This document shows positions 20,896 to 63,866 of a stretch of DNA of 64,000 bases, piece by piece. A model generated the notes under the pieces. The model was given only the letters and a program-made list of their open reading frames with translations, had not been told where the DNA came from and made no database searches. How positions within the stretch are numbered: the stretch's first letter is position 1; each line of letters opens with the position of its first letter. The translations under genes were made by a program, and so were the position numbers. The stretch spans positions 1,394,394 to 1,458,393 of the forward strand of contig NC_019702.1 of assembly GCF_000317085.1 (NCBI RefSeq), given 5' to 3'. The DNA comes from Synechococcus sp. PCC 7502. GTDB lineage: Bacteria > Cyanobacteriota > Cyanobacteriia > Pseudanabaenales > Pseudanabaenaceae.

Positions 20896-22820
20896 CTAGC
20901 TATAGATACTAATGTCTTTGCCTGAATAGGACTCAAATATATGCTGATAAACTTCTTGGCATTTTTGCTCGTAAATTTCTATGGTGTAACGCCTTGGGAG
21001 CTTATCTAGAATGTATTTAATGGTTATGTCTACTTCTGCTTTGCTCTGCTGACGTTTACGCCAGTCTAGGACTAATTTATCCTGTTTCAGTGTCTCCAAT
21101 AATTCCTTAGATACATTTTTGACTTCTTGCCTCTCTTGATTAGTTAGCTCAAGCTCAGGCTTAGTGAGCAAGTCAAAGATAACTAGCTCTTCATCGGTCA
21201 GTTTTTCTGCTAGTTTTCTCCTGTCTTCCACATTTAGTTCATCATGGAATTTAAGTAACTCTCTAAAAAATATTTCTTGGTTTCGAGAACCTGAGTTATA
21301 CTCATCAATCATTTTCTGGAACTTTTCTAGATAGTTCATCCTAGTTCGATTGACTTGAATCATCTGCTTAAGATTTTGGCTAATATTGCCTTTGAGCTTC
21401 TCGATAGCCGTTTGTTTGTATCCAGAGTTGAACTTGGCTTTAAGAGCTTCAACATCAAGCTTAAAGTCTATTTTAGTAATATCGACTATAGGGTTTAAAC
21501 CATGAATAATAAACTCACCAGCAGTAATCGAATCATCTAGTAGCTCATTTACTTCTTCTAGTACCTCTGAAATATCTGTCACCTCAATTTCTTGACGGAT
21601 TTTATCGGCTAATCTTTCTAGCAAAAATCTAGTGTTAGCAAATTCATTTGCTGAGGTATCTGGTAAAACTGCTTTGAATAGGCTATTTACAGTATTGACT
21701 ATAGAAAAGTAGTTACGCTTTGATTGTTCATCAGCCAAAGAATTTACAGCTTCATCCCATAGCTTTGTTCTGTTAAATGGGTCTTTTGTTGTATCTAACT
21801 TAATGAGGTCTATATTTCTAGTGTTACAAAATGCTAAAGCTTCAGTTATTGCCTTTCTAAGCTGCTCTACAAGGGCTTTCTTATCTTTTACTGGTGTATC
21901 ACCTTCACCTGCACTAGAGCCATAAATAGCTAAGGCATTTTGTAGGTCTCTAAACACACCTATGTAATCTACTATCAATCCGTTGACTTTGCCCTCATAG
22001 ACTCTATTAGCTCTAGCGATAGTCTGCATTAGCGTATGGTTACGCATGGGCTTGTCTAGGTAGATAGTGGAGCAGTTGGGTACGTCAAAGCCAGTAATCC
22101 ACATAGCACAGACAAAAACTATCCTCAGTGGGTTATTTGGGTCTTTAAATTTCTCATCTAGTTTAGGTGATTCATTAACTATTCTTTTTCTGTGAGGTGT
22201 GATGTCTAAATCTTTTTTCTGAAAAGCTTCTACTTCATTCTGTGATTGAGATATGACAACAGCCATATCTGTTTCTTCTACATATTTAATTTGCTTGGAT
22301 AATTTCTTAATCTCAAACTCGCTGATTATTGGTCTAGCTAATTGGGCTTTAAGGTCATCTAGATATACTTGCCAGTGGTATTTAACCTTGTTGTACATCT
22401 TTACGGCTGTAAAGCGGTCTATGGCGATAAACATTGCTTTACCTTGATAGCCTCTACCTAGAAAATGAGTCACTAGGTCAGCAGCAATCTTTTCAAGTCG
22501 GTCATCTCTGACAATTAGTTGATATTGTCTGGTACATTGACGCTCTAGTTTTTTCTCTTCTTCTTCATCTAGCATCGCAGCTTCAACAATCTGCTCCATA
22601 TCACCATTAATGTCTTCATTGCTTAACTGTAGTTCTGGTATGCGATTTTCATAGTACAAAGGAACGGTTGCACCATCTTCTACTGATTGCCTAAAGTTAT
22701 AAACGCTGACATAATCGCCAAATACTTCTCTGGTTTTCTCTTCACCAGATATTAAAGGTGTACCCGTAAAGCCAATAAAAGCAGCATTAGGCAGGGCATT
22801 TCGCATATTTAAAGCATATA
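20896..22820 (-). pseudogene. hsdR: hsdR, 3' part (split by IS)
   Basis: C-terminal two thirds of a Type I restriction endonuclease subunit, the DNA-translocating motor. It resumes at [12 protein letters not shown] and carries FIGFTGTPL (motif III), [10 protein letters not shown] and MQTIARANR (motifs V and VI) and the helical C-terminus that binds the methylase core. The first few codons of the open frame (MKQAL) come from the IS end. Joining 24,970-23,727 to 22,816-20,896 gives 1055 codons in frame, a normal HsdR of 1054 residues. Confidence 0.93.
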
Positions 22821-22829
22821 GAGCCTGTT

Positions 22830-23414
22830 TCATATCTCATGAGTAGCAATTCTTTTTAGCATCAAACGAATAAAGCAAAGATTGAGTTTAGCTGTAGCAT
22901 TAACGAGAGTTCTCTCAAAGTTCTTAACTAAGATTTTGCATCTTTCAACCCAAGCATTTGACCTTTCAATTACCCACCTTGTCGGCACAACTACAAACCC
23001 AGACAGACCTTTTTCTGCCTTCTGTTGCTTTGATACCTTAGGAGAAATTTCAAACCTAATCTTAGTCATAATCTCAGGATAAACCTTCTGTAAATCAGTC
23101 GTCAATTTTTCGATATGATAACCACTATCCAGCAATATCGTAGTTAGCGTAATGTCATCTGGTTTCGATTTGAAGTAATCAATGTTAATCGTTAACATCT
23201 CAATCAGTCCTTGGTCATCTGATACATTTGCTCTTGTTAAATAGGTAAAGAAAGGAAATCCCAGAGTGTCAACGGCTAAATGTCTTTTGATCCCGTTAGT
23301 TGCTTTGTAGGAGCAGAAGCCCTTGGATTCTATACTTGCATTACAAGTATTTTTCACTGCTTGTGAGTCAATGATGATTAAAGTTGTCCATTTTGATTTT
23401 TTTTGACTGTTCAC
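22830..23414 (-). CDS. IS427-type transposase OrfB (copy A)
   Basis: Catalytic half of a DDE transposase, 194 residues. [11 protein letters not shown] holds the first Asp, LLDSGYH the second, and [10 protein letters not shown] the Glu. The frame is +1 relative to OrfA and overlaps it at A8, so the active enzyme is probably an OrfAB fusion made by slippage. It differs from copy C by several residues near [13 protein letters not shown]. Confidence 0.9.
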
Positions 23415-23679
23415 GGGCTGTTGAATGCAAGGTTTCCATAATCGCAGTAAATGTACCTGTATCTTTCCACTCCTTGTAGTATCGATAGACTGTAGAGAAT
23501 GGTGGTAAGTCTCGGGGCATATCTCGCCAATTACAACCGTTTTTGAGTTGGTAGAGTATGCCGTCTAAAATTTGTCTTTTTGTCCAAGTTGGCGGTCTAG
23601 TTTGCTTTTTCTTTGGGAGCAATGGTTCTATAATTTCCCATTCTTTATCTGTTAGGCTACTTGAGTATGGATTTAGCAT
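23368..23679 (-). CDS. IS427-type transposase OrfA (copy A)
   Basis: N-terminal DNA-binding half, 103 residues, of the DUF4096-like type with [35 protein letters not shown] and [10 protein letters not shown]. It ends after the A8 run that is shared with OrfB. Confidence 0.9.
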   Translation of the reverse strand: MLNPYSSSLTDKEWEIIEPLLPKKKQTRPPTWTKRQILDGILYQLKNGCNWRDMPRDLPPFSTVYRYYKEWKDTGTFTAIMETLHSTAREQSKKIKMDNFNHH

Positions 23680-23726
23680 TTTCTAAGCATCATACATCTT
23701 GCTCATAATAGATATGAAACAGGCTC

Positions 23727-24970
23727 TATATATCATATTGGCTTCTATGTGCCTCATCAGCGATAACTATGATGTTTGAGCGGTCTGATAGTTTAGTGTA
23801 AGTAGTTCCTTTTTCGGTTCTGAATTTCTGGATTAGTGTAAAGATATAGCGATGGTCTTCTTGCAGTAGTAATTTTAGGTGTTCTGCACTATCTGCTCTG
23901 ACATCGGTTTCAGGCTCTGTAACTGCTCCTGAGTAAGCAAAGTTTTTATAGATTTGCGAGTCTAAATCATCTCGGTCAGTGATGATAATAAAAGTCCAGT
24001 TTCCTAATATTTTGCGTAAGATTTTCTGAGCAAAAAATACCATTGAGTAACTTTTGCCACTGCCTGTGCTATGCCAAAAGATGCCTAACTTGCCTTGATT
24101 GTGGCTAATTTGGCTTACGGCTGCAATTGCATTGTTAACACCTAAGAATTGATGATTTTTAGCAATGATTTTTGAAGTTGTACCACCTGAATTATTGAAA
24201 ATGGCAAAGTTTTCGATGTAGTCCAATAGCTTATTTGGGTCACAAACACCTCTAATCATGGTGTCTAGTGAGATAACTCCTTCTTCACCCTCATTATTTA
24301 TCTTTTTCCAGTGGCTAAAGTGTGAATACTCAGCAGTTAGACTGCTGATTTTGCTCTGACTGCCATTAGACAGAATAATTATGGAGTTGTACCAGAAAAG
24401 CTGAGGTATTGTGTTTTTATAGTCTTTGAGGTTATTGTAGTAGGCATTTACTAGCTTTTGATGGTGTGCTTTGAGTTCGATAAATACTAACGGGATACCA
24501 TTAACAAAGCCGATTAAGTCAGCCCTCCTAGTGTAAGTTTCGCCTGTTACCCAAAATTGAGAAGCTAGGAAGAAATCGTTGTTTAATGGGTTATTCCAGT
24601 CAATGATTTTGACAGTTTCGACTGTTTCAGCGTTATTTTCATCTCTATAGCGAACCTTTACCCCTGATTTCAACAGTTGATAAATTTCTTGATTGGCATT
24701 GACTAGACTTAGGGAATTACGACTACCTTTTATTTCTTCTGTAGCAAGGTGTAACGCCTCATTGGGTAAGCTTGGGTTTAATCGCTGTAGTGACGGTAGT
24801 AATTTAGAGACTAAGACCACCTCATCTTTGCTACTTCTGCCTAGAGTGCTATTAGTAGCTCCTACAACCTCATTAAAGCAGTTTGCACTAGTCCAGCCTA
24901 ATTGCTCAAATACTAGCATTGCAGCATTTTCTAGGGCTTCTTCTGAGTCTGGATGAGGTGCTTTAGGCAT
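23727..24970 (-). pseudogene. hsdR: hsdR, 5' part (split by IS)
   Basis: N-terminal part of the Type I restriction subunit. It has the RecB-like nuclease core (RADLIGFVNGIPLVFIELKA, with Asp and ExK), Walker A STGSGKSYSMVF and the DEAH box VIADEAHRSQYD, after which the frame runs into the IS. The truncated product would have the nuclease but no complete motor, so restriction is expected to be off while the IS is present. It lies two bases from the HEPN gene. Confidence 0.93.
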
Positions 24971-42062: not shown

Positions 42063-44027
42063 TTGCTTATGCTGGAGCATTTGAGAGATTTCTACATTCC
42101 CCATGGACATTGCTATCTGTGGCAGCCAGTTTTGGTATATCTCAATGTTGCAGGGGACGCAATTATCGGACTTAGTTACTACTCTATTCCGATTACGATT
42201 ATTGATTTTGTGCGCCGCCGCCAAGATTTACCTTTCAACTGGATATTTGTCCTATTTAGCATATTTATTCTCGCCTGTGGTTCAGGACATTTTGCCGATA
42301 TTTGGACATTGTGGTTTCCCGATTATTGGCTTTCCACAGGGATTAAAGTCATAACGGCTGCTGTTTCTTTAATAACGGCGATCGCCATAGTTGCCCAAAT
42401 CCCTAAGGCACTTGCCCTACCTAGTCCTGCCCAACTGCGTGATGCCAATACTAAGCTCGAAGCTGAAATCTTACAACGGCAAAAAACTCAAGAGTATTTA
42501 GAAAAAAGTGAAAAACTCTTGGCTTCCTATAATCTTGATCTCGAACAACTAGTTAAAGCTAGAACGCAAGAACTAGAACTAGCTAAACAGGCAGCCGAAT
42601 TTGCCAATAAAGCCAAAAGTAGTTTTCTTGCCAATATTAGCCATGAACTGCGCACTCCATTGAATGCCGTGATTGGATTTACGGAGCTAATGCTTAAAGA
42701 TAGTAGCTTCTTAGAATCCCAGCGTCAAAATCTTAGAATTGTTAATAGTAGTGGTTCCCATCTGCTGTCTTTAATTAATAACGTCTTAAATATGTCTCGG
42801 ATTGAGGCAGGTCAAGATCAAACGGAAATTACCTTAGTTAATCTACCCGAACTCATGGAAACTTTACGTTCGATGCTGAGCCTTAAAGCTAAGACCAAAA
42901 ATATTGATTTGTCTATTATCTATGCTCCAAATTCACCAAACCTGATAGAAACCGATGAACGTAAGCTTAAACAGGTTTTGATTAACTTAGTTGGTAATGC
43001 CCTCAAATTTACACACCAAGGTCATGTGCAGGTTTTTGTCGGCTTTAATTCTCAACCCGATCGCTCTAGTCTCCAGATTGCAGTTAAAGATACGGGCATA
43101 GGTATTCCTGAAGTTGAAATTTCCCAAATATTTACACCCTATAATCCTGTTAGTGGGCGATCGCCAGACGGTACGGGCTTAGGACTATTTCTTAGTAAAA
43201 AATTAATTGAATCCCTCGGTGGTACCATTCAAGTTTCTAGCCAACTTGGACAGGGAACAACCTTTAGTTTTGATCTGCCCGTAACCATTATTCCTGAGCC
43301 TAATATTGCCAAGACTGAGCAAATAGATAAAACTGGTGAAGTAAGGGAATTATTGGTGAGGCTGGCTCCCGATCAACCTCAATACCAAATTTTAGTAGTG
43401 GATGATGAATATACCAATCGCCAACTGTTAACTAGAATTCTCACTGATATTGGTTTATCGGTACAAGAGGCAATTAACGGGGATGAAGCGATTAATTTAT
43501 GCTGCCTTAATAACTACGATCTGATATACATGGACTGGCAAATGCCGATTATTGACGGGGCTGAAGCTACTAAAACTATTAAGACCAGAGCTAATAAAAC
43601 TAATCAACTCCAACCTAAAATTATTGCCGTCACCGCTAACATTTTTGTAGATCGTCAAACTATGTTGGATATCGGCTGTGATGACCTAGTCCATAAGCCA
43701 TTTAAGCATCAAGATATTCTGGATATGCTAGCTAAACATTTAGACTTACAGCTAGTTTATGAGACAATAAACCTAAACGTTGCAAATGCTACAAATGCAC
43801 TAACACAAAAGTCTTTACTTTCTTTATCACCTCAGATAGTTACCGATTTAGAGGGGGCAATTCACAGTGCTGATTTGGATACTGTTAATCATGTGATTAC
43901 CCAGATTCGCTCCCAAAATGCAGGTTTAGCAGATATTCTCGAAATTTATACTAAAGAGTTTGCCTACGAACTAATTTTGCAAGCGATCGCTGACACCAAA
44001 ACCATAGACCTTAATGACCAAGCCTAA
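42063..44027 (+). CDS. Ethylene-receptor-like hybrid histidine kinase
   Basis: 654 residues. Three N-terminal membrane helices (about 21-115) form an ETR1-type ethylene-binding domain. All key residues are present at a constant offset of seven from Arabidopsis ETR1: D32, Y39, I42, P43, and copper ligands C72 and H76 in ACGSGHF. A coiled coil leads to the kinase ([13 protein letters not shown] near residue 192, then N, G1 and G2 boxes), followed by a receiver (about 445-560; D in YMDWQMP) and an HPt-like tail. It overlaps the next gene by 14 bases, so the two should act together. Confidence 0.93.
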
Positions 44028-52577: not shown

Positions 52578-55500
52578 ATGACTGAAAAACTTACTGAAAA
52601 AGTGATTGAAACAGGCGATCGCATTCCTTTAATTTTAATTATCAGCAGCAAGCCAGATTTCCTGTTAAATTTCAAGTTAAACCATATTCAGCAATGTGAG
52701 TCTATTTCAGAAGCCTTAAAACTGGCATTAGCATCACGAACGGATCAACAATCACAGTGTATTTTGCTTGACTGGGAATTATCAGAATGTTCTCAGCTTA
52801 CCTGTATGAGCGTAACTACTTTGATCGAAAAGAAAGAGGTGCTTCAGCAGTTAGACAAAGCATCCCAAAATTTTGTACCAGTTTTAATCTTAATAGGGAC
52901 AAAGCAGGAAGAAAAGCTTAAAGAAATAGTTACTCCTCTGCATCTAGATTATCTGCTTAAAGAAAGTTTGAGTCAGGAATTTTTAAATTTTGCTATTAAT
53001 CAGGCGATCACTAAGGCAAATCTAAACCAAAAATTAGCAGAAACCGAACGGAAATTACAGAAATATGAACCTAAGAGAAAAAGTAGTAAAAGGATTAGGC
53101 TTAAATCTCTTAAATCTCCAGAAAAATCTCTATCCCTTTATCAATTTGACCCTCAGATTCTTGACCAAGTCAGTGATGCGGTGATTCTGATAGACAAAGA
53201 TTATCGAGTAACCTACTGCAACGATTCTGCTTTAAATCAGTATAAGCTTCCAGCAGATAAAATGCGTGGTAAATACTTAAGCGAATGCTATGAATTTAAG
53301 TGGCTGAATCCTGAAGATGAACATAGAGCCATGGCAGCAATCGAAACTCAGGGCTATTGGGAAGGTGAAAATATCCATCGCCTTTTAAATGGGGAAGAAT
53401 TATGGGTCGGCTCCAGAGTAGTTACACTTAGGGATGAAAGTGGAAATTCTATTGGGTTGTTGGCAACAATCCGCAACATCACAAAGCAAAAATTAGCTGA
53501 ACAATCTCTCAAGGAAAGCGAATTAAAGTTAAGAAAACTAACTGATAATATTCCCGTTGCCCTTTATCAATTTCTGCTCAAACCTGATGGCTCAATGTCC
53601 TTCCCATTTACGAGTCAGGGTACTTTCTCGCTTTACGAACTTACCCCAGAAGCAATTCAAGCGGATGCCAATATCATTTTTACCTTAGTACATCCCTTGG
53701 ATGTGGAACCTTTGTATCAATCCATCCAAATTTCGGCTCAAACCCTAGAACCTTGGCGATGGGAAGGCAGAATATACACGGCTTCAGGAAAATTAAAGTG
53801 GATTTCAGGGATTTCTCAACCCGAACTACTGCCCAATGGTGACATTCTTTGGCATGGCATGGCTAGGGATATTAGCGATCGCAAGGAATATGAAATTGCA
53901 TTACAAAAAAGTGAAGCAACTAATCGTACTATGCTGAATGCTATTCCTGATTTGATCCTACGACTTGCCAGTGACGGCACCTGTTTATCCTATAAAAAGT
54001 CTGGAATTGGAGTAGATAATTGCCAACCAATTAAAAATCATATTTCAGAGGTTTTAACCCCAGAATTGTTGCAACAACAGATGCAAACTATTGAGCAAGC
54101 GATCGCCACAGGAGAATTACAGATTCATGAACATAAACATCTTAAACCCAATCGTATTGTTTATGAAGAGGTGAGAACCTTAGCGATTAATGATCAAGAA
54201 GTTCTGGTGATCGTGCGTGATATTAGCGATCGCAAACAAGCAGAAATTGAACTCAAAACCAAAACTACCGAACTTGATCGATTTTTCTCTGTATCCCTAG
54301 ATTTACTTTGTATTGCGAATATGGACGGTTATCTCCTCCGCCTTAATCCTTCTTGGCAGACTACTCTAGGCTATAGTTTAGATCAACTGGAGGGGAGTTA
54401 TTGCATTGATTATGTTCATCCCGAAGATGTAAAAAGGACTTTGGATGCGATCGCACTTTTTAATACTCAGCCGTACATTGCCAAATTTGTAAATCGCTAT
54501 CGATGCCGTGATGGCTCCTATCGTTGGTTCGAGTGGAGAGGCGCAAGCAGTGGTAACTTGATTTATGCTGCCGCTAGAGATATTACTGATCGGAAACAAA
54601 TAGAAGAGAAATTACGGCGAAGTCAAGAAAATTTATGCCAGAGTGAAGAGCTATTGAAACTAACAATTGACAATACTCCCGTTGGTATCTGCACTTTCAA
54701 CCTTGAAAATCAATTTTTAACTGTCAATCAGTACTTATGTCAAATACTTGGCTACTCACCTGAAGAGCTTATCAAAAAAACTACCTTAGAATTTAGCCAT
54801 CCCAGTTATGCAGAAACCTGTTTGGCAGCTATTTCCCGACTGTTAGCTAATATCACAAAACATGAATGTATAGAGAAACAGTATTTACATAAAAATGGAA
54901 CTCTAATTGATGCTATTACTCGAATCAGTTTGATTAAAAATGCTAAAGGTGAGCCATCTCACTTTGTCGCCACTGTGGAGGATATTACCCAGCGTAAACG
55001 TACAGCGATCGCTCTCCACCAAAGAATAGAGTACCAAAATGTTTTAATGACCCTTACCCAACAGATTCGTCAATCTCTGAACCTAAATCTCATCCTAGAA
55101 ACTACTGTAACCGAAGTCAAAAGAATCTTAAATTGCGATCGGGTAATCATCTATCAGTTGCTTGAAAATGGCTTGTCTAAAATTGTCCAAGAATCTGTAA
55201 ACCCAACTTACCCAGTTATTCTGCATAGCAGTTGGCATGACACACATCTAACATCTGAAATGTTTGAATATTTTATTAACTCTAATATTTTGATTGAGAA
55301 TAATGTTTCCGAACATTCCTTTTTTAAAGATTTATCAGAGTATATGCAGGAAGCAAAGATCAAATCCAAGATTATTGCTCCAATTGTGCATCATATTAAT
55401 AATGTCAATAACGAGGTTAATAATAAAGTTGAAGTCACTAGATGGCAAAGATATGATAAACAGCTATGGGGGCTATTAATTGTGCATTCCTGCGGAGAAT

Positions 55501-56747
55501 TGCGGCACTGGCAACCTGAAGAAGCTGAATTATTAGAACAGATTACTAATCAACTGGCGATTTCTATTCAACAGGCAAGTCTCTACCAACAACTGCAAAA
55601 TCAAGCTAAGGCTGATCGCATCCAGACTGAGGTTACTTTAATAATTAATCAATCTAACAGCGTAAAAGAAGCACTAGATTTGATCTTAAAAAAAGCAAAG
55701 GATTTCCTACAGTGCGATCGCATTCAAATTTTTCAACTAGATGTCAACTGCAACGGCTATGTCCTAAAAGAGGAAGTCTGCTGTCCCGAATTATCAATGC
55801 TGAATACCGTATTTAAAGATAGTTGCTTTGCCCCCAAAGATATAGCCACAGAATATCTGAATGGTCAAGTTACCTATATCAATGATGTGGAAAATGACCC
55901 AAATATTGCTCCCTGTCATGCTGAAATATTGCGCCAGTATCAAGTTAGGGCAAATCTTGTCGCTCCTATTATCTTGGGCGATAGCCTGTGGGGACTATTA
56001 CTCGTACATCAATGCACTGAACCAAGGTATTGGCAACCATTAGAAATCAGCTTTATCCAGCAAATAGGGATGCAGATTAGTACAGCTGTGCAGAAAGAGA
56101 ATCTATATCTACAAATATGTAATGAATTAGATCAAAAGAAAATACTATTGCAAGAAATACACCATCGGGTGAAAAATAACCTGCAAGTTATGTCCAGCAT
56201 CTTGTTTCTCCAGTTTCGTAATGCCCCACTTGCAACTCAGTTAAGCATAGAACAGTATCAAAGCCGCTTGGAGTCTATGGCATTAATTCATGATCAACTC
56301 TATCGTAGTGATGATCTTAGCCTCATTGATTTCTCTAGCTATATTCATAACTTAACCGCCAACCTATTACAGTGTTACTATCCCCATCCAGACCTAATTG
56401 AACTAAACATAGAGGTTAATAACGTATTTCTATCCCTAGATCAATCTATTCCTTTAGGGTTAATTATTAATGAACTGGTCTCTAATTCTTTGAAATATGC
56501 CTTCCCCAATCAGTATGGCAGAATCAATATTCAGCTAACAAAGACCATTCCGCTAAACAAGATGCCAATATCTTTAACACTCTTGGTATCAGATAATGGG
56601 GTAGGTATAAGGCAGGATTCAGCCCTAGACACTTCTCAAAATTTAGGATTACAGCTAGTCCAGAGTTTAACCGAACAATTAGAGGGAGATATTAGCTTTG
56701 ATTATAAAAATGGCTTTAGCGTGCAAATAACTTTCCCGATTACTTAA
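52578..56747 (+). CDS. Multi-PAS/GAF sensor histidine kinase (HisKA_2)
   Basis: A soluble kinase of 1389 residues. Order: a receiver-like segment (about 17-150, acceptor Asp kept in CILLDWEL but the first acidic pocket lost), then five PAS modules (about 195-310, 315-440, 445-560, 565-685 and 695-810), two GAF modules (about 830-1005 and 1020-1175), a HisKA_2 dimerisation segment EIHHRVKNNLQVMSSILFLQ (near 1195) and an HATPase domain. The GAF domains have no obvious chromophore cysteine. It precedes the REC-AraC gene by 164 bases and is its likely partner. Confidence 0.93.
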   Translation: MTEKLTEKVIETGDRIPLILIISSKPDFLLNFKLNHIQQCESISEALKLALASRTDQQSQCILLDWELSECSQLTCMSVTTLIEKKEVLQQLDKASQNFVPVLILIGTKQEEKLKEIVTPLHLDYLLKESLSQEFLNFAINQAITKANLNQKLAETERKLQKYEPKRKSSKRIRLKSLKSPEKSLSLYQFDPQILDQVSDAVILIDKDYRVTYCNDSALNQYKLPADKMRGKYLSECYEFKWLNPEDEHRAMAAIETQGYWEGENIHRLLNGEELWVGSRVVTLRDESGNSIGLLATIRNITKQKLAEQSLKESELKLRKLTDNIPVALYQFLLKPDGSMSFPFTSQGTFSLYELTPEAIQADANIIFTLVHPLDVEPLYQSIQISAQTLEPWRWEGRIYTASGKLKWISGISQPELLPNGDILWHGMARDISDRKEYEIALQKSEATNRTMLNAIPDLILRLASDGTCLSYKKSGIGVDNCQPIKNHISEVLTPELLQQQMQTIEQAIATGELQIHEHKHLKPNRIVYEEVRTLAINDQEVLVIVRDISDRKQAEIELKTKTTELDRFFSVSLDLLCIANMDGYLLRLNPSWQTTLGYSLDQLEGSYCIDYVHPEDVKRTLDAIALFNTQPYIAKFVNRYRCRDGSYRWFEWRGASSGNLIYAAARDITDRKQIEEKLRRSQENLCQSEELLKLTIDNTPVGICTFNLENQFLTVNQYLCQILGYSPEELIKKTTLEFSHPSYAETCLAAISRLLANITKHECIEKQYLHKNGTLIDAITRISLIKNAKGEPSHFVATVEDITQRKRTAIALHQRIEYQNVLMTLTQQIRQSLNLNLILETTVTEVKRILNCDRVIIYQLLENGLSKIVQESVNPTYPVILHSSWHDTHLTSEMFEYFINSNILIENNVSEHSFFKDLSEYMQEAKIKSKIIAPIVHHINNVNNEVNNKVEVTRWQRYDKQLWGLLIVHSCGELRHWQPEEAELLEQITNQLAISIQQASLYQQLQNQAKADRIQTEVTLIINQSNSVKEALDLILKKAKDFLQCDRIQIFQLDVNCNGYVLKEEVCCPELSMLNTVFKDSCFAPKDIATEYLNGQVTYINDVENDPNIAPCHAEILRQYQVRANLVAPIILGDSLWGLLLVHQCTEPRYWQPLEISFIQQIGMQISTAVQKENLYLQICNELDQKKILLQEIHHRVKNNLQVMSSILFLQFRNAPLATQLSIEQYQSRLESMALIHDQLYRSDDLSLIDFSSYIHNLTANLLQCYYPHPDLIELNIEVNNVFLSLDQSIPLGLIINELVSNSLKYAFPNQYGRINIQLTKTIPLNKMPISLTLLVSDNGVGIRQDSALDTSQNLGLQLVQSLTEQLEGDISFDYKNGFSVQITFPIT

Positions 56748-56911
56748 AACCGCCATTCTGACTAACCCATTAACAAATACCTTAACTACAGAGAGATGAT
56801 GGAATATACTGCTAAATAATCGCAAAGTTCGCCTTTTTATCATGAGGATCAATTGGTAATTACTGGTAACTAATAGTAGTGTATAAAATTAATAGTACTG
56901 TTTGGATGTAA

Positions 56912-57676
56912 ATGCTTGAGGTTATGGGTACCAAAACATTAATTGTCGAGGACGAAAAGCTAGTCGCCCAACATATTTCACAGCTTTTAAAGGATGAAGA
57001 TGGCAGTATCTGCGAAATTGCCTCTGATGGTAATACAGCAATCAAAAAAATTGCAGACTTTCAGCCTAAACTTATCCTCCTCGATATCCGCCTCAAAGGA
57101 GAAATGGATGGTATAGAAGTTGGTGAGCATATTCAATCTTTGTATGATATTCCTTTCCTTTACCTCACTGCCTTCAGCGATCGCGAAACTATTGAACGTG
57201 CTAAACATACCTATCCTGCGGGATATATTCTCAAGCCTTTTCGCCGTGAGCAACTAACTTCGGCAATTAAAATAGCTATGTCAACTCATAGCGCTCAAAA
57301 AAATGCTCAAATAAATAAGCTTGCCTTAGAGCATGATTCATCTCCAGCAGAAAAAGTACTAGCTAATTATCGGCTGAAACCAATACTTGACTACATCAAT
57401 AAACATTTTGATCATGAGATTAATTTGGAAACTTTAGCTGATTTGATCAACATGAATCCTTCTTATTTTTGCCGATTTTTTAATCAAGAAGTTGGCTGCT
57501 CTCCCTATCAATATATTATTCAAACCCGTATAGAAAAGGCAAAAATTCTCCTGAAGCAAAAAGATTTATTCATTAATGATATTTGTTTTCAATGTGGATT
57601 TACTTCCCACAGTCAATTTAATCGCCACTTCCGCCGTTTTGTAGGTATGACACCCAAAGAATTTCGTGACTTATAG
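56912..57676 (+). CDS. Response regulator with AraC-type DNA-binding domain
   Basis: 254 residues. The receiver (about 8-125) has the acidic pair in VEDEK, phospho-acceptor D in LILLDIRLKGEMDG, T in LTAFSD and K in ILKPFRR. The AraC domain (about 150-254) contains two helix-turn-helix units (LETLADLINMNPSYFCRFFNQ and INDICFQCGFTSHSQFNRHF) and the closing MTPKEFR. A transcription regulator of this form is a plausible output for the kinase just upstream. An in-frame ATG five codons downstream is an alternative start. Confidence 0.92.
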   Translation: MLEVMGTKTLIVEDEKLVAQHISQLLKDEDGSICEIASDGNTAIKKIADFQPKLILLDIRLKGEMDGIEVGEHIQSLYDIPFLYLTAFSDRETIERAKHTYPAGYILKPFRREQLTSAIKIAMSTHSAQKNAQINKLALEHDSSPAEKVLANYRLKPILDYINKHFDHEINLETLADLINMNPSYFCRFFNQEVGCSPYQYIIQTRIEKAKILLKQKDLFINDICFQCGFTSHSQFNRHFRRFVGMTPKEFRDL

Positions 57677-57934
57677 AAATTAATATCAGTAAGCTTAAAT
57701 TCTATAGTTATTACAGTTTTTATGAAAAAAGGGACAAAGTAGGGTTGCAGGGCTAGGTTCCCCGTTATGGTTTTATATTTCTTTTTGTGCTGCTTAAAAC
57801 TGATAAGCGCAATATAAATGTAGTTATAAATACTTAAAACTCATATCAATTAATAACTAGGTTGTAAAAAACGGGTTAACGCTTTCGGCTGGATTTACTC
57901 TAATGTCTCTGTGTATCGCAAAGGAGATGTACCA
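57677..57934. other. Gap between the AraC regulator and pseudo-receiver gene
   Basis: About 250 bases, AT-rich, with a GC-rich patch near 57735-57760. No open frame of note. An AAGGAG ribosome-binding site at 57921-57926 fixes the start of the next gene at the GTG at 57,935. Confidence 0.45.
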
Positions 57935-58801
57935 GTGCAGTTACTAAACAGAAATGTGAAATCCAGTTCCGTTCAGGAGCGATCGCTTGTGGTAGTTATT
58001 GCGGAGTCTGATTATTCAACTTCTCAGCTAGTGGTTGCAGAACTAAGGAAAGATCGGCATTTGGTCATAGTCCGTGACAACTTTGAAGATATTGATGTAG
58101 CTCTAAGTATTCAAATACCTGATCTATTAATTTTAGGAAATGTGCAGGGAGTTAGATTCTTAGATTCATTACGGAAATATTCTAAGTTACATCCGAATAT
58201 GCGGATCATTTTACTCACTGGTGATGAGAAGGTAAATCAAACTTTTCGAAATTGGGCAATCTCTAAGGGATTTTATGATGTTCTTAGTTCCTACTACTCA
58301 AATTTACATCTATTGAGAGAAGCATTACAGGAAATTCTCTATTCATATCAGAACAATCCTCAAGAAATTCCAGAATTTAACACTTCAATTTCCGATTTAG
58401 TTATTCCTGAACTGCCCTTAGACCTGAATTTAGAAACAAACCTAACTTTAGAAACACTAAGCTATCGGCAAACTCTATATGCACTTAACCAGATCACCCA
58501 ATTTAGCAAGCAATATTTTAATGAAATGATACTGGCTAATTATTGGAATAAGTCTTACAGAAGTCTAATTGTCGAACACCATTGGCTAGAGTCTTGGTCT
58601 ATCAATCATAACGGCACAATTTCGTATTTTAGTGAAGAAATACCAGAGGGGCGACTTACCGAATCCGAATATGCAAGCTTAAAGTTATGGGTTCAGGGCT
58701 TTCTACAGGAATGCGATCGCCTAATTAATGACTACACCTCAATTTTACAAAAAGCTAAGTTATCGGTTCCAGTTAATCAAATCATTGGTTTTATAAGTTG
58801 A
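57935..58801 (+). CDS. Pseudo-receiver domain protein
   Basis: 288 residues from the GTG at 57,935, chosen because AAGGAG lies eight bases upstream; a GTG at 57,911 would add eight residues. The first 130 residues have receiver topology (VVVIAESDY as strand 1, PDLLILGN as strand 3, IILLTGD as strand 4), but the phospho-acceptor position is Gly (LGN, about 67-69) and the acidic pair is reduced. The C-terminal half is helical with no known family. It overlaps the next gene and resembles its N-terminal domain. Confidence 0.7.
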   Translation: MQLLNRNVKSSSVQERSLVVVIAESDYSTSQLVVAELRKDRHLVIVRDNFEDIDVALSIQIPDLLILGNVQGVRFLDSLRKYSKLHPNMRIILLTGDEKVNQTFRNWAISKGFYDVLSSYYSNLHLLREALQEILYSYQNNPQEIPEFNTSISDLVIPELPLDLNLETNLTLETLSYRQTLYALNQITQFSKQYFNEMILANYWNKSYRSLIVEHHWLESWSINHNGTISYFSEEIPEGRLTESEYASLKLWVQGFLQECDRLINDYTSILQKAKLSVPVNQIIGFIS

Positions 58802-58809
58802 CGAGCATA

Positions 58810-59832
58810 ATGACCTTAGACCCAAATTCATCTCATAATTCCCATAATATAATTCCTGGTTATCACCTGAACCTATCAACCCTGCGGATAGTCATAGCTG
58901 AATCCAATCCAAAAATTCTGAACAGCTTACTTCAGAAAATGCTAAGTATTAGCAACTGGCATATTTATACCTGTGGTGAGTACACGGAATTACTTGAGGT
59001 TTTGAGTTTTGGTACCGTCGATTTATTGCTACTAGGAAATATTAATCAAAGTAATTGTCGGGAAATTTCTCAAATTTGTCGCCAAGAGTGGCAAGATTTA
59101 CCAATAATTTTCATTAGTCATGATCCGATGATTCCGGGCTTTTATCGCAGCTTGATTGCCGACAGTCAAGGACTTGGCGATGTCGTTAGTAGTACTGCTG
59201 ATAAACATGATCACTTTGTCAAAGTAATTCAAAATGTGACTGGTGTAATTCATGCCCAAAAACAAGTTCTATCTTGCCTATCTCTCGCTCCAACTACTGC
59301 CAAGGAAGATTTGATTTCACTAATAATTGATGGTAAACCTACTACTTCACCAAAGGGAACTCAACTGCTCAAAGCATTGTTAGGTAATCAAGCTAAATTG
59401 CTAAAAGCCTGTGGTGGGCAAGGAAGGTGCGCTACCTGTCATGTATTTGTCCAAGCAGGAATGGATTATTTAACGCCTCCAACTGCTTCAGAACTAATGA
59501 CCCTAGACCTGATGGGGATTAAAAACCCTAATGCTCGCCTTGCCTGTCAATGTCAAATTCTTGCAGCAGGGGTAGAAGTTGAAGTCCCAAAAGGTAAATA
59601 TATTGGTTCGGAAGCGGAACTGGAATCATTAATTGGTAAGAGGGCGCAACAGTCGTTTATTGATCCGAGCACGGGCGAAATTCTCATACATGAAGGTAAA
59701 TTGATCTTAAGATCAGCCCTACAGAAGATGCAGGAAATTAATCAAGAGTTAGCAAAAAAGCTGGGTATTTTGTTATGCCGCAAATCTATGCAAAAGCCAA
59801 CTTCAGTTACCTATTCCCTAAAAGACCTCTAG
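58810..59832 (+). CDS. Pseudo-receiver fused to 2Fe-2S ferredoxin domain
   Basis: 340 residues from the ATG at 58,810; a TTG at 58,798 would overlap the upstream stop. Residues about 25-145 are receiver-like (LRIVIAESNP, VDLLLLGNI) with Gly at the phospho-acceptor position, as in the neighbour. Residues about 170-270 form a plant-type ferredoxin domain: cysteines 201, 207 and 210 in KACGGQGRCATCHVF and 246 in ARLACQ are the expected 2Fe-2S ligands. The tail is helical. A redox or oxygen sensor working with the upstream kinase/AraC pair is a reasonable inference. Confidence 0.8.
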   Translation: MTLDPNSSHNSHNIIPGYHLNLSTLRIVIAESNPKILNSLLQKMLSISNWHIYTCGEYTELLEVLSFGTVDLLLLGNINQSNCREISQICRQEWQDLPIIFISHDPMIPGFYRSLIADSQGLGDVVSSTADKHDHFVKVIQNVTGVIHAQKQVLSCLSLAPTTAKEDLISLIIDGKPTTSPKGTQLLKALLGNQAKLLKACGGQGRCATCHVFVQAGMDYLTPPTASELMTLDLMGIKNPNARLACQCQILAAGVEVEVPKGKYIGSEAELESLIGKRAQQSFIDPSTGEILIHEGKLILRSALQKMQEINQELAKKLGILLCRKSMQKPTSVTYSLKDL

Positions 59833-61887: not shown

Positions 61888-62190
61888 TCAGGCGTGCTTT
61901 TTTTTAGGGATTACCTTAACTTGCGGCTCTACACTGACAGACTTACCATTTACATAACTCTGTAACCACTGTAATGACACCTTGGCAACACGCTTAATCC
62001 CTCGCATGGATATACGTTCTAGCAGCAGATTATCGACTAATTTAATTGTGGATTCAGCTATTGGCTGGTTTTTGGGATTAATCACAAATTGACGATTACA
62101 CTTTTTACATTTGTAGTTTTGTTTTTTGTGACGGGTTATGCCATTCTTAACTATCTGGTCACTTTCACAGTAAGGACATTTTACTTCCAT
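61888..62190 (-). CDS. IS1-like transposase InsA part
   Basis: 100 residues with a zinc ribbon (CPYCESDQ and CKKCNRQF) and a helix-turn-helix region. The frame ends just after a run of eight A followed by G, where a -1 shift joins it to RLTIECDELWSFVGDKK of the InsB part, as in programmed frameshifting of IS1 relatives. Confidence 0.8.
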   Translation of the reverse strand: MEVKCPYCESDQIVKNGITRHKKQNYKCKKCNRQFVINPKNQPIAESTIKLVDNLLLERISMRGIKRVAKVSLQWLQSYVNGKSVSVEPQVKVIPKKKHA

Positions 62191-62857: not shown

Positions 62858-63866
62858 TCAAATTGTGGGGGACGTGAGAAGAGTTAGCAGGATTATCCAC
62901 CAAGGCACTCTAATATCTGGAATAAACTTAGCTTTAAGCATTGGCAAACCTTGGGGCAGTATAAATCTGATTGAGCTTAAAGAAGCTGGGCGACAATCGT
63001 ATTCATCAACAATTCCATAACGAGCCGCCAATTCCGCCACAATATGTACTTTACCAGTTCGACGCATCAGATCAGGAGTATTAAATAAGGCAGCAATTAC
63101 TCTACCCACAAATAAATGAGTTTCCCAATTAAACTTATCTAGGATTCTTACAGATGAGTTTCCCTTCTCGGCAACGCCAAGATTACTCTCAGTATTTTGA
63201 AGGTTGTCATCAACTAGCCTATGAAAATGCTCAGTGCCAATAATACCGGGATAAAGTGAAATCGAAACAACATTAAATGGCTTAAGTTCGACTGCCATAT
63301 CTGCCGCAAGGCGATCGCAAGCAGATTTACCAGTTAGTTCCATAGGCTACTCCAAAGATAGGAGCTAATCCGCCCCAAGAAGATATGGTCACGATTAATC
63401 CTTGCTTGCGTTGGGTCATCATCTTCGCTGCCCAATGACTTGACACATAGTGACTGCTCAACCCAACTTGATTGCAAGCATCCCAAAGACTAATATCCGA
63501 TTCCCAAAATGGCTTGCCTTTGCTCTCTATCAGCGATCGCACTCCGCCATAGGCATTGTTTACCAATAGATCTAATTGTCCATTTTGTTCCCTATCAATT
63601 TGCTCAAATAGAGATTTAATCTGTATATCATCACTGTGATCGGTGGGTATAGCAATACAAATTCCACCCGCCTTTTCTACTGCATTCTTAGTATCTAATA
63701 AGTCATTCGATAACAGTTCTGGAGAATTACTACCATCAAAACTGCGCCCCGTAATATAAACCAACGCACCTGCTTCACCCAAAGCGATCTCAATACCCTT
63801 GCCAATTCCCCGTGATGCCCCCGTTACAAGTGCGACTTTACCATTCAAATTTCTTGGCACGAACAA
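62858..63866 (-). pseudogene. SDR-family dehydrogenase, frameshifted
   Basis: Short-chain dehydrogenase resembling the DHRS1 group. The N-terminal part (179 codons, 63,866-63,327) has TGASRGIGKGIEIAL, the NNAYGG strand and the active-site ISSWGG...VAYG, and the C-terminal part (from 63,343) resumes TGKSACDRLAADMAVEL. The catalytic YxxxK is interrupted: the direct repeat AGTTAGTT (63331-63338 plus strand) is a 4-bp duplication, and removing one unit restores YGTGK in frame. A recent loss of function, or a sequencing error, is likely. Confidence 0.85.

Follow-up and report, generated by a model that had tools for sequence, protein, structure and literature searches.

A cluster-type ferredoxin joined to a phosphorylation-dead receiver domain beside a probable light-sensing two-component system in Synechococcus sp. 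PCC 7502

What does a receiver-like domain do on a 2Fe-2S ferredoxin that is encoded next to a histidine kinase and a response regulator? This question is raised by a locus in the window analysed here, a stretch of 64,000 nucleotides of Synechococcus sp. PCC 7502 (contig NC_019702.1, one of three contigs that make up a genome of about 3.58 Mb). Four genes follow one another on the forward strand: a multi-sensor histidine kinase (52578..56747, 1389 aa), a REC-AraC response regulator (56912..57676, 254 aa; Response_reg 1.6e-20, HTH_18 7.6e-25), P0001 (57935..58801) and, after a gap of 8 bases, P0002 (58810..59832). The Pfam domain search recovered the kinase and the regulator upstream of, and co-directional with, the two other genes, as the first-pass annotation had described. 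P0001 may start at 57911 or 57935, the GTG at 57935 being the likeliest start with AAAGGAG upstream of it; P0002 may start at 58798 or 58810, and the ATG at 58810 is preferred. Unless stated otherwise, residues are numbered from 57911 for P0001 and from 58798 for P0002.

As modelled, both N-terminal domains (residues 27-148 of P0001 and 30-161 of P0002) are pseudo-receivers, that is, receiver folds devoid of the phosphotransfer residues. Using alignments of relatives as input, AlphaFold2 predicted a receiver architecture of five beta-alpha units in both proteins; the mean pLDDT is 85.5 for the whole P0001 model and 81.6 for that of P0002, with values mostly around 95 over the receiver regions. 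In P0001 this domain is followed by a helical C-terminal domain (about 185-295); in P0002, a 28-residue helix runs from the pseudo-receiver toward the ferredoxin domain, the inter-domain arrangement being uncertain (pTM 0.51). Foldseek, with TM scores normalised by target length, matched the P0001 model to receivers (about 0.84) and the P0002 model to the FdC ferredoxin (0.84), to receivers (about 0.8) and to KaiA. Searched by sequence, P0001 matched no solved structure, and Pfam Response_reg reached E values of only 0.016-0.047 on the two domains, under the Pfam cut-off, which marks them as divergent. The family profile also matches receiver-type proteins of about 255 aa (around 1e-9). Structure prediction and fold comparison agree on a receiver fold for both N-terminal regions, as had been proposed from the sequence. 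Aligned with each other over 110 aa, the two domains are 27% identical (E=0.004), and on this alignment the pseudo-receiver of P0002 is related to that of the neighbouring gene.

The shared motifs first noticed in the two domains were also confirmed: VIAES occurs at strand 1 in both, and LGN ends strand 3 in both, in the place of the phospho-acceptor. Across 25 aligned domains, the phospho-acceptor Asp is replaced by Gly in all 25, most have Glu-Ser where the acidic pair would follow strand 1, and the Lys of strand 5 is missing, with a Ser present there. With Asp, acidic pair and Lys lost, the sequences exclude phosphorylation at the usual position throughout the pseudo-receiver family. In 23 of the 25 domains strand 2 ends with a Cys, which P0001 lacks.

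The second half of P0002 matches Fer2 (E=4.8e-8), and the solved structures closest to it are ISC-type and adrenodoxin-type ferredoxins. The cluster-binding loop CGGQGRCATC (59410..59439), which is invariant in the five fused proteins and retained in unfused relatives, provides C205, C211 and C214, and C250 is the fourth ligand (codon 59545..59547); counted from the ATG at 58810, these correspond to the C201, C207, C210 and C246 initially assigned to a 2Fe-2S domain. In the alignments all four are conserved in fused and unfused relatives, while C252, just after the fourth ligand, is an extra Cys of the fused clade. The core is followed in this clade by a conserved extension (GKY..SEAELESLVGK.AQQ...HP.TGE.LV.EGKLILR.AL), and a similar extension is present in unfused ferredoxins of a known cyanobacterial cluster, slr0144-slr0149 (BBAG).

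In Synechocystis PCC 6803, this cluster encodes a ferredoxin, two V4R proteins and a globin of bilin-binding type (PMC10151467) and has been tied to bilin biosynthesis and photosystem II assembly (PMC10151467, PMC9145668), slr0144-slr0152 being described as a photosystem II assembly operon (PMC9145668). Its ferredoxin, Slr0148, is the adrenodoxin-like Fed5 (PMC4284462). P0002 combines the four cysteine ligands with the C-terminal extension and groups in one tree with the cluster ferredoxins; by its sequence, its ferredoxin is of the Slr0148/Fed5 kind, with an ancestry in the slr0144-slr0149 cluster and in no signalling family, the link to Slr0148 being made through the cluster neighbours and the published cluster, since the tree holds no sequence named slr0148. 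Unlike Fed5, P0002 has an N-terminal pseudo-receiver and the extra Cys.

Two further ferredoxin copies of the same genome clarify this relation. At L011, a second fusion (58% identical to P0002) stands in the order kinase, Uma2-like gene, REC-AraC, EAL, fusion, V4R, small ORF, phycobilisome-like globin, V4R; the fuller order at L089, in Pseudanabaena sp. lw0831, is kinase, REC-AraC, pseudo-receiver/C-terminal-domain gene, EAL, fusion, V4R, small ORF, globin, V4R. The cluster globin matches Phycobilisome PF00502 (4.9e-14) and one of the V4R proteins matches PF02830 (8.2e-19). At L012, a third, unfused copy has one V4R neighbour. The arrangement of ferredoxin, two V4R and globin was met at L011, L089, L090 and L091 and is absent from the window locus, which keeps P0001 and P0002 with the kinase and regulator genes and is best read as a partial duplicate. 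The window regulator is 62-69% identical to those at L011 and L089; weaker relatives exist in G387, G388 and G389, none of which adjoins the cluster. Compared with the canonical cluster, these loci differ in the fusion itself, in the kinase and REC-AraC genes alongside and, at L011 and L089, in the EAL gene.

Around such clusters, other variants were observed. In many canonical clusters, a gene shares the C-terminal domain of P0001 behind an N-terminus that is not a receiver and looks roadblock-like by eye (no Pfam match). More widely in cyanobacteria, this C-terminal domain, for which the Pfam search returned no family, lies behind varied N-termini (roadblock-like by eye, pentapeptide repeats and others), often near V4R or ferredoxin genes (L095:8817-9800, L139:1012-1845, L138:1465-2145). 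Several relatives encode a second ferredoxin upstream of the pseudo-receiver gene, divergent and about 145-169 aa long (L096:10421-10861, L097:5476-5913, L098:9984-10493).

Full-length fusions were seen only in the family of the window genome, to which Pseudanabaena also belongs: two in the window genome (G000) and the others in Pseudanabaena sp. lw0831 (G193), G390 and G387. Most other carriers have the pseudo-receiver/C-terminal-domain gene just upstream of a separate ferredoxin, and the complete gene of this type was found in 5 of the 386 sampled cyanobacterial genomes (G000, G193, G346, G197 and G058). The fused pseudo-receivers form a single clade in the tree (100/100), which argues for one origin. 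Three unfused ferredoxins, from G391, G388 and G389, join those of the fusions in one clade (99/100); this mixture suggests a single gain followed by loss, an order that the tree does not resolve. Among the fused proteins, identity is 60% in the pseudo-receiver, 66% in the ferredoxin core and 13% in the linker. A literature search of partial coverage returned no paper in which a 2Fe-2S ferredoxin is fused to a receiver or pseudo-receiver. The cluster is known, and what is new is its ferredoxin joined to a phosphorylation-dead receiver beside a probable light-sensing two-component system.

The light-sensing assignment comes from the kinase, which comprises an N-terminal receiver-like region, PAS domains, two GAF domains, HisKA_2 and HATPase. 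Its second GAF (residues about 1030-1171) has matches among solved cyanobacteriochromes (6oap ranking first, E=4e-31) and contains a DSCF and a PCH (CH) motif, whose cysteines we take to be those of the DXCF type; the domain is therefore a cyanobacteriochrome-type GAF with both cysteines. This kinase differs from described DXCF kinases in its HisKA_2 core, its REC-AraC partner and the adjoining pseudo-receiver genes. The receiver of the regulator is intact (LLD and KPF motifs). The kinases at L011 and L089 lack the chromophore cysteine pair, so light sensing is no conserved trait and the sensor differs among paralogs.

How closely is the fusion bound to signalling genes? The HisKA_2 kinase/REC-AraC pair adjoins three of the five fused loci, in two genomes (window, L011 and L089), so that the linkage recurs outside the window genome; at the other two fused loci and in the split-gene relatives, the pair is not beside the cluster. 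Judged by reading coordinates, a kinase, regulator or EAL gene lies directly beside the cluster at 7 of the 8 loci of the window's ferredoxin clade and at 2 of 10 other pseudo-receiver clusters, and among 27 canonical clusters about one shows this. The contrast of 7/8 with 1/27 gives p=9e-6 in a Fisher test, a value that is overstated because the loci share ancestry, the window and L011 being paralogs and L093 and L094 sisters. The adjoining modules vary in kind (HisKA_2 with REC-AraC; EAL alone; REC-EAL; another kinase with a multi-receiver regulator), which indicates a repeated association with signalling and not one fixed pathway.

These results bear on the hypothesis that was first put forward, a phosphorylation-independent redox branch of the two-component pathway, in which the 2Fe-2S redox state would alter the pseudo-receiver, which would bind the kinase or the REC-AraC regulator and tune the pathway. 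Linkage at three loci, the nearly equal conservation of fused pseudo-receiver and ferredoxin core and the helix directed from one toward the other are in its favour; neither of the two objections foreseen for it, a lack of co-occurrence in other genomes and N-terminal regions of another fold, was borne out. Nevertheless, we consider it unlikely, and the analysis lent it no direct support, since the pair is missing beside the cluster at two of five fused loci and in the split relatives, the ferredoxin normally sits among V4R and globin genes (except in the window) and its ancestry lies in the slr0144-slr0149 cluster. The broader version, a single circuit of bilin-sensing kinase, pseudo-receiver pair and 2Fe-2S domain in which redox state would be read through the phosphorylation-dead receiver and merged with the light signal at the kinase or the regulator, appears to us rather improbable.

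The pseudo-receiver could also sense a small molecule, either a bilin or quinones as in KaiA and CikA, and gate the attached ferredoxin. Those are likewise cyanobacterial receiver folds without phospho-acceptor, whose redox link is quinone binding (PMC12632262, PMC13421787), although they belong to other proteins with other partners, and in P0002 the domain is fused to a 2Fe-2S domain. The binding of quinones by the KaiA and CikA pseudo-receivers (PMC12632262), the KaiA match of P0002 (22% identity) and the widely conserved strand 2 Cys agree with such a role, but KaiA is just one among many receiver-fold matches and P0001 lacks this Cys, and we regard a sensor of this kind as quite unlikely. 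The remaining reading, that the fusion is a neutral accident of rearrangement and that the pseudo-receiver contributes nothing of its own to P0002, draws on the three close relatives (G391, G388 and G389) with the same ferredoxin type unfused, in which the fusion seems dispensable. It is in our view highly improbable, given fused pseudo-receivers that remain about 60% identical across genera, with many invariant residues, against 13% in the linker.

The explanation that we prefer, tentatively and with slightly less than even confidence, is that the locus partially duplicates a signalling-linked form of the slr0144-slr0149 cluster, that its transcription is set by light and that its pseudo-receivers dock the ferredoxin to its partners. 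A Slr0148/Fed5-type ferredoxin would have gained an N-terminal pseudo-receiver related to the P0001 domain. The cyanobacteriochrome-like kinase and the REC-AraC regulator would work by ordinary phosphotransfer and adjust transcription of the locus to light, and the pseudo-receivers of P0001 and P0002 would act as phosphorylation-independent protein-docking modules. Docking may bring P0001 and P0002 together or bring the ferredoxin to V4R and globin proteins, which, as the window locus has neither, would have to be encoded elsewhere; the docked ferredoxin could then hand electrons to tetrapyrrole metabolism or photosystem maintenance. Several observations count against this docking model: no V4R or globin gene in the window, no chromophore cysteine pair in the L011 and L089 kinases, a repeat instead of an operator (see below) and an adjacency statistic that ignores kinship. 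A cluster ferredoxin joined to a pseudo-receiver beside two-component and c-di-GMP genes suggests that, in some lineages, signals control the cluster. P0002 is, moreover, a small protein suited to asking what pseudo-receivers bind, and in it the question of what the slr0144-slr0149 proteins do meets that of how bacterial pseudo-receivers switch (PMC12632262).

A candidate operator was considered in the gap between the regulator and P0001, where a 29-base block, GCAGGGCTAGGTTCCCCGTTATGGTTTTA (57747-57775, forward strand), is common to the window and L011. The block occurs five times in the genome, three of them by unrelated genes, and twice, less exactly, in a genome of the same genus, with similar flanks at several sites; it was rejected as an operator and classified as a dispersed intergenic repeat, so that no operator was found in this gap. 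Scanned for promoters and terminators, positions 56700-58900 yielded little beyond chance expectation.

Elsewhere in the window, a hybrid histidine kinase (42063-44027, forward strand) carries the ethylene-receptor domain ETR1_N at its N-terminus (E=1e-36), HisKA, HATPase and a receiver. On the reverse strand, a Type I restriction R subunit (20896-24970) is in two pieces, N-terminal (23726-24970) and C-terminal (20896-22833), separated by another ORF, and appears broken or interrupted. Also on the reverse strand are an insertion-sequence fragment with an InsA-type zinc-ribbon (61888-62190) and a short-chain dehydrogenase-like gene (62858-63866) read in two frames that overlap near 63327-63343, probably as the result of a frameshift.
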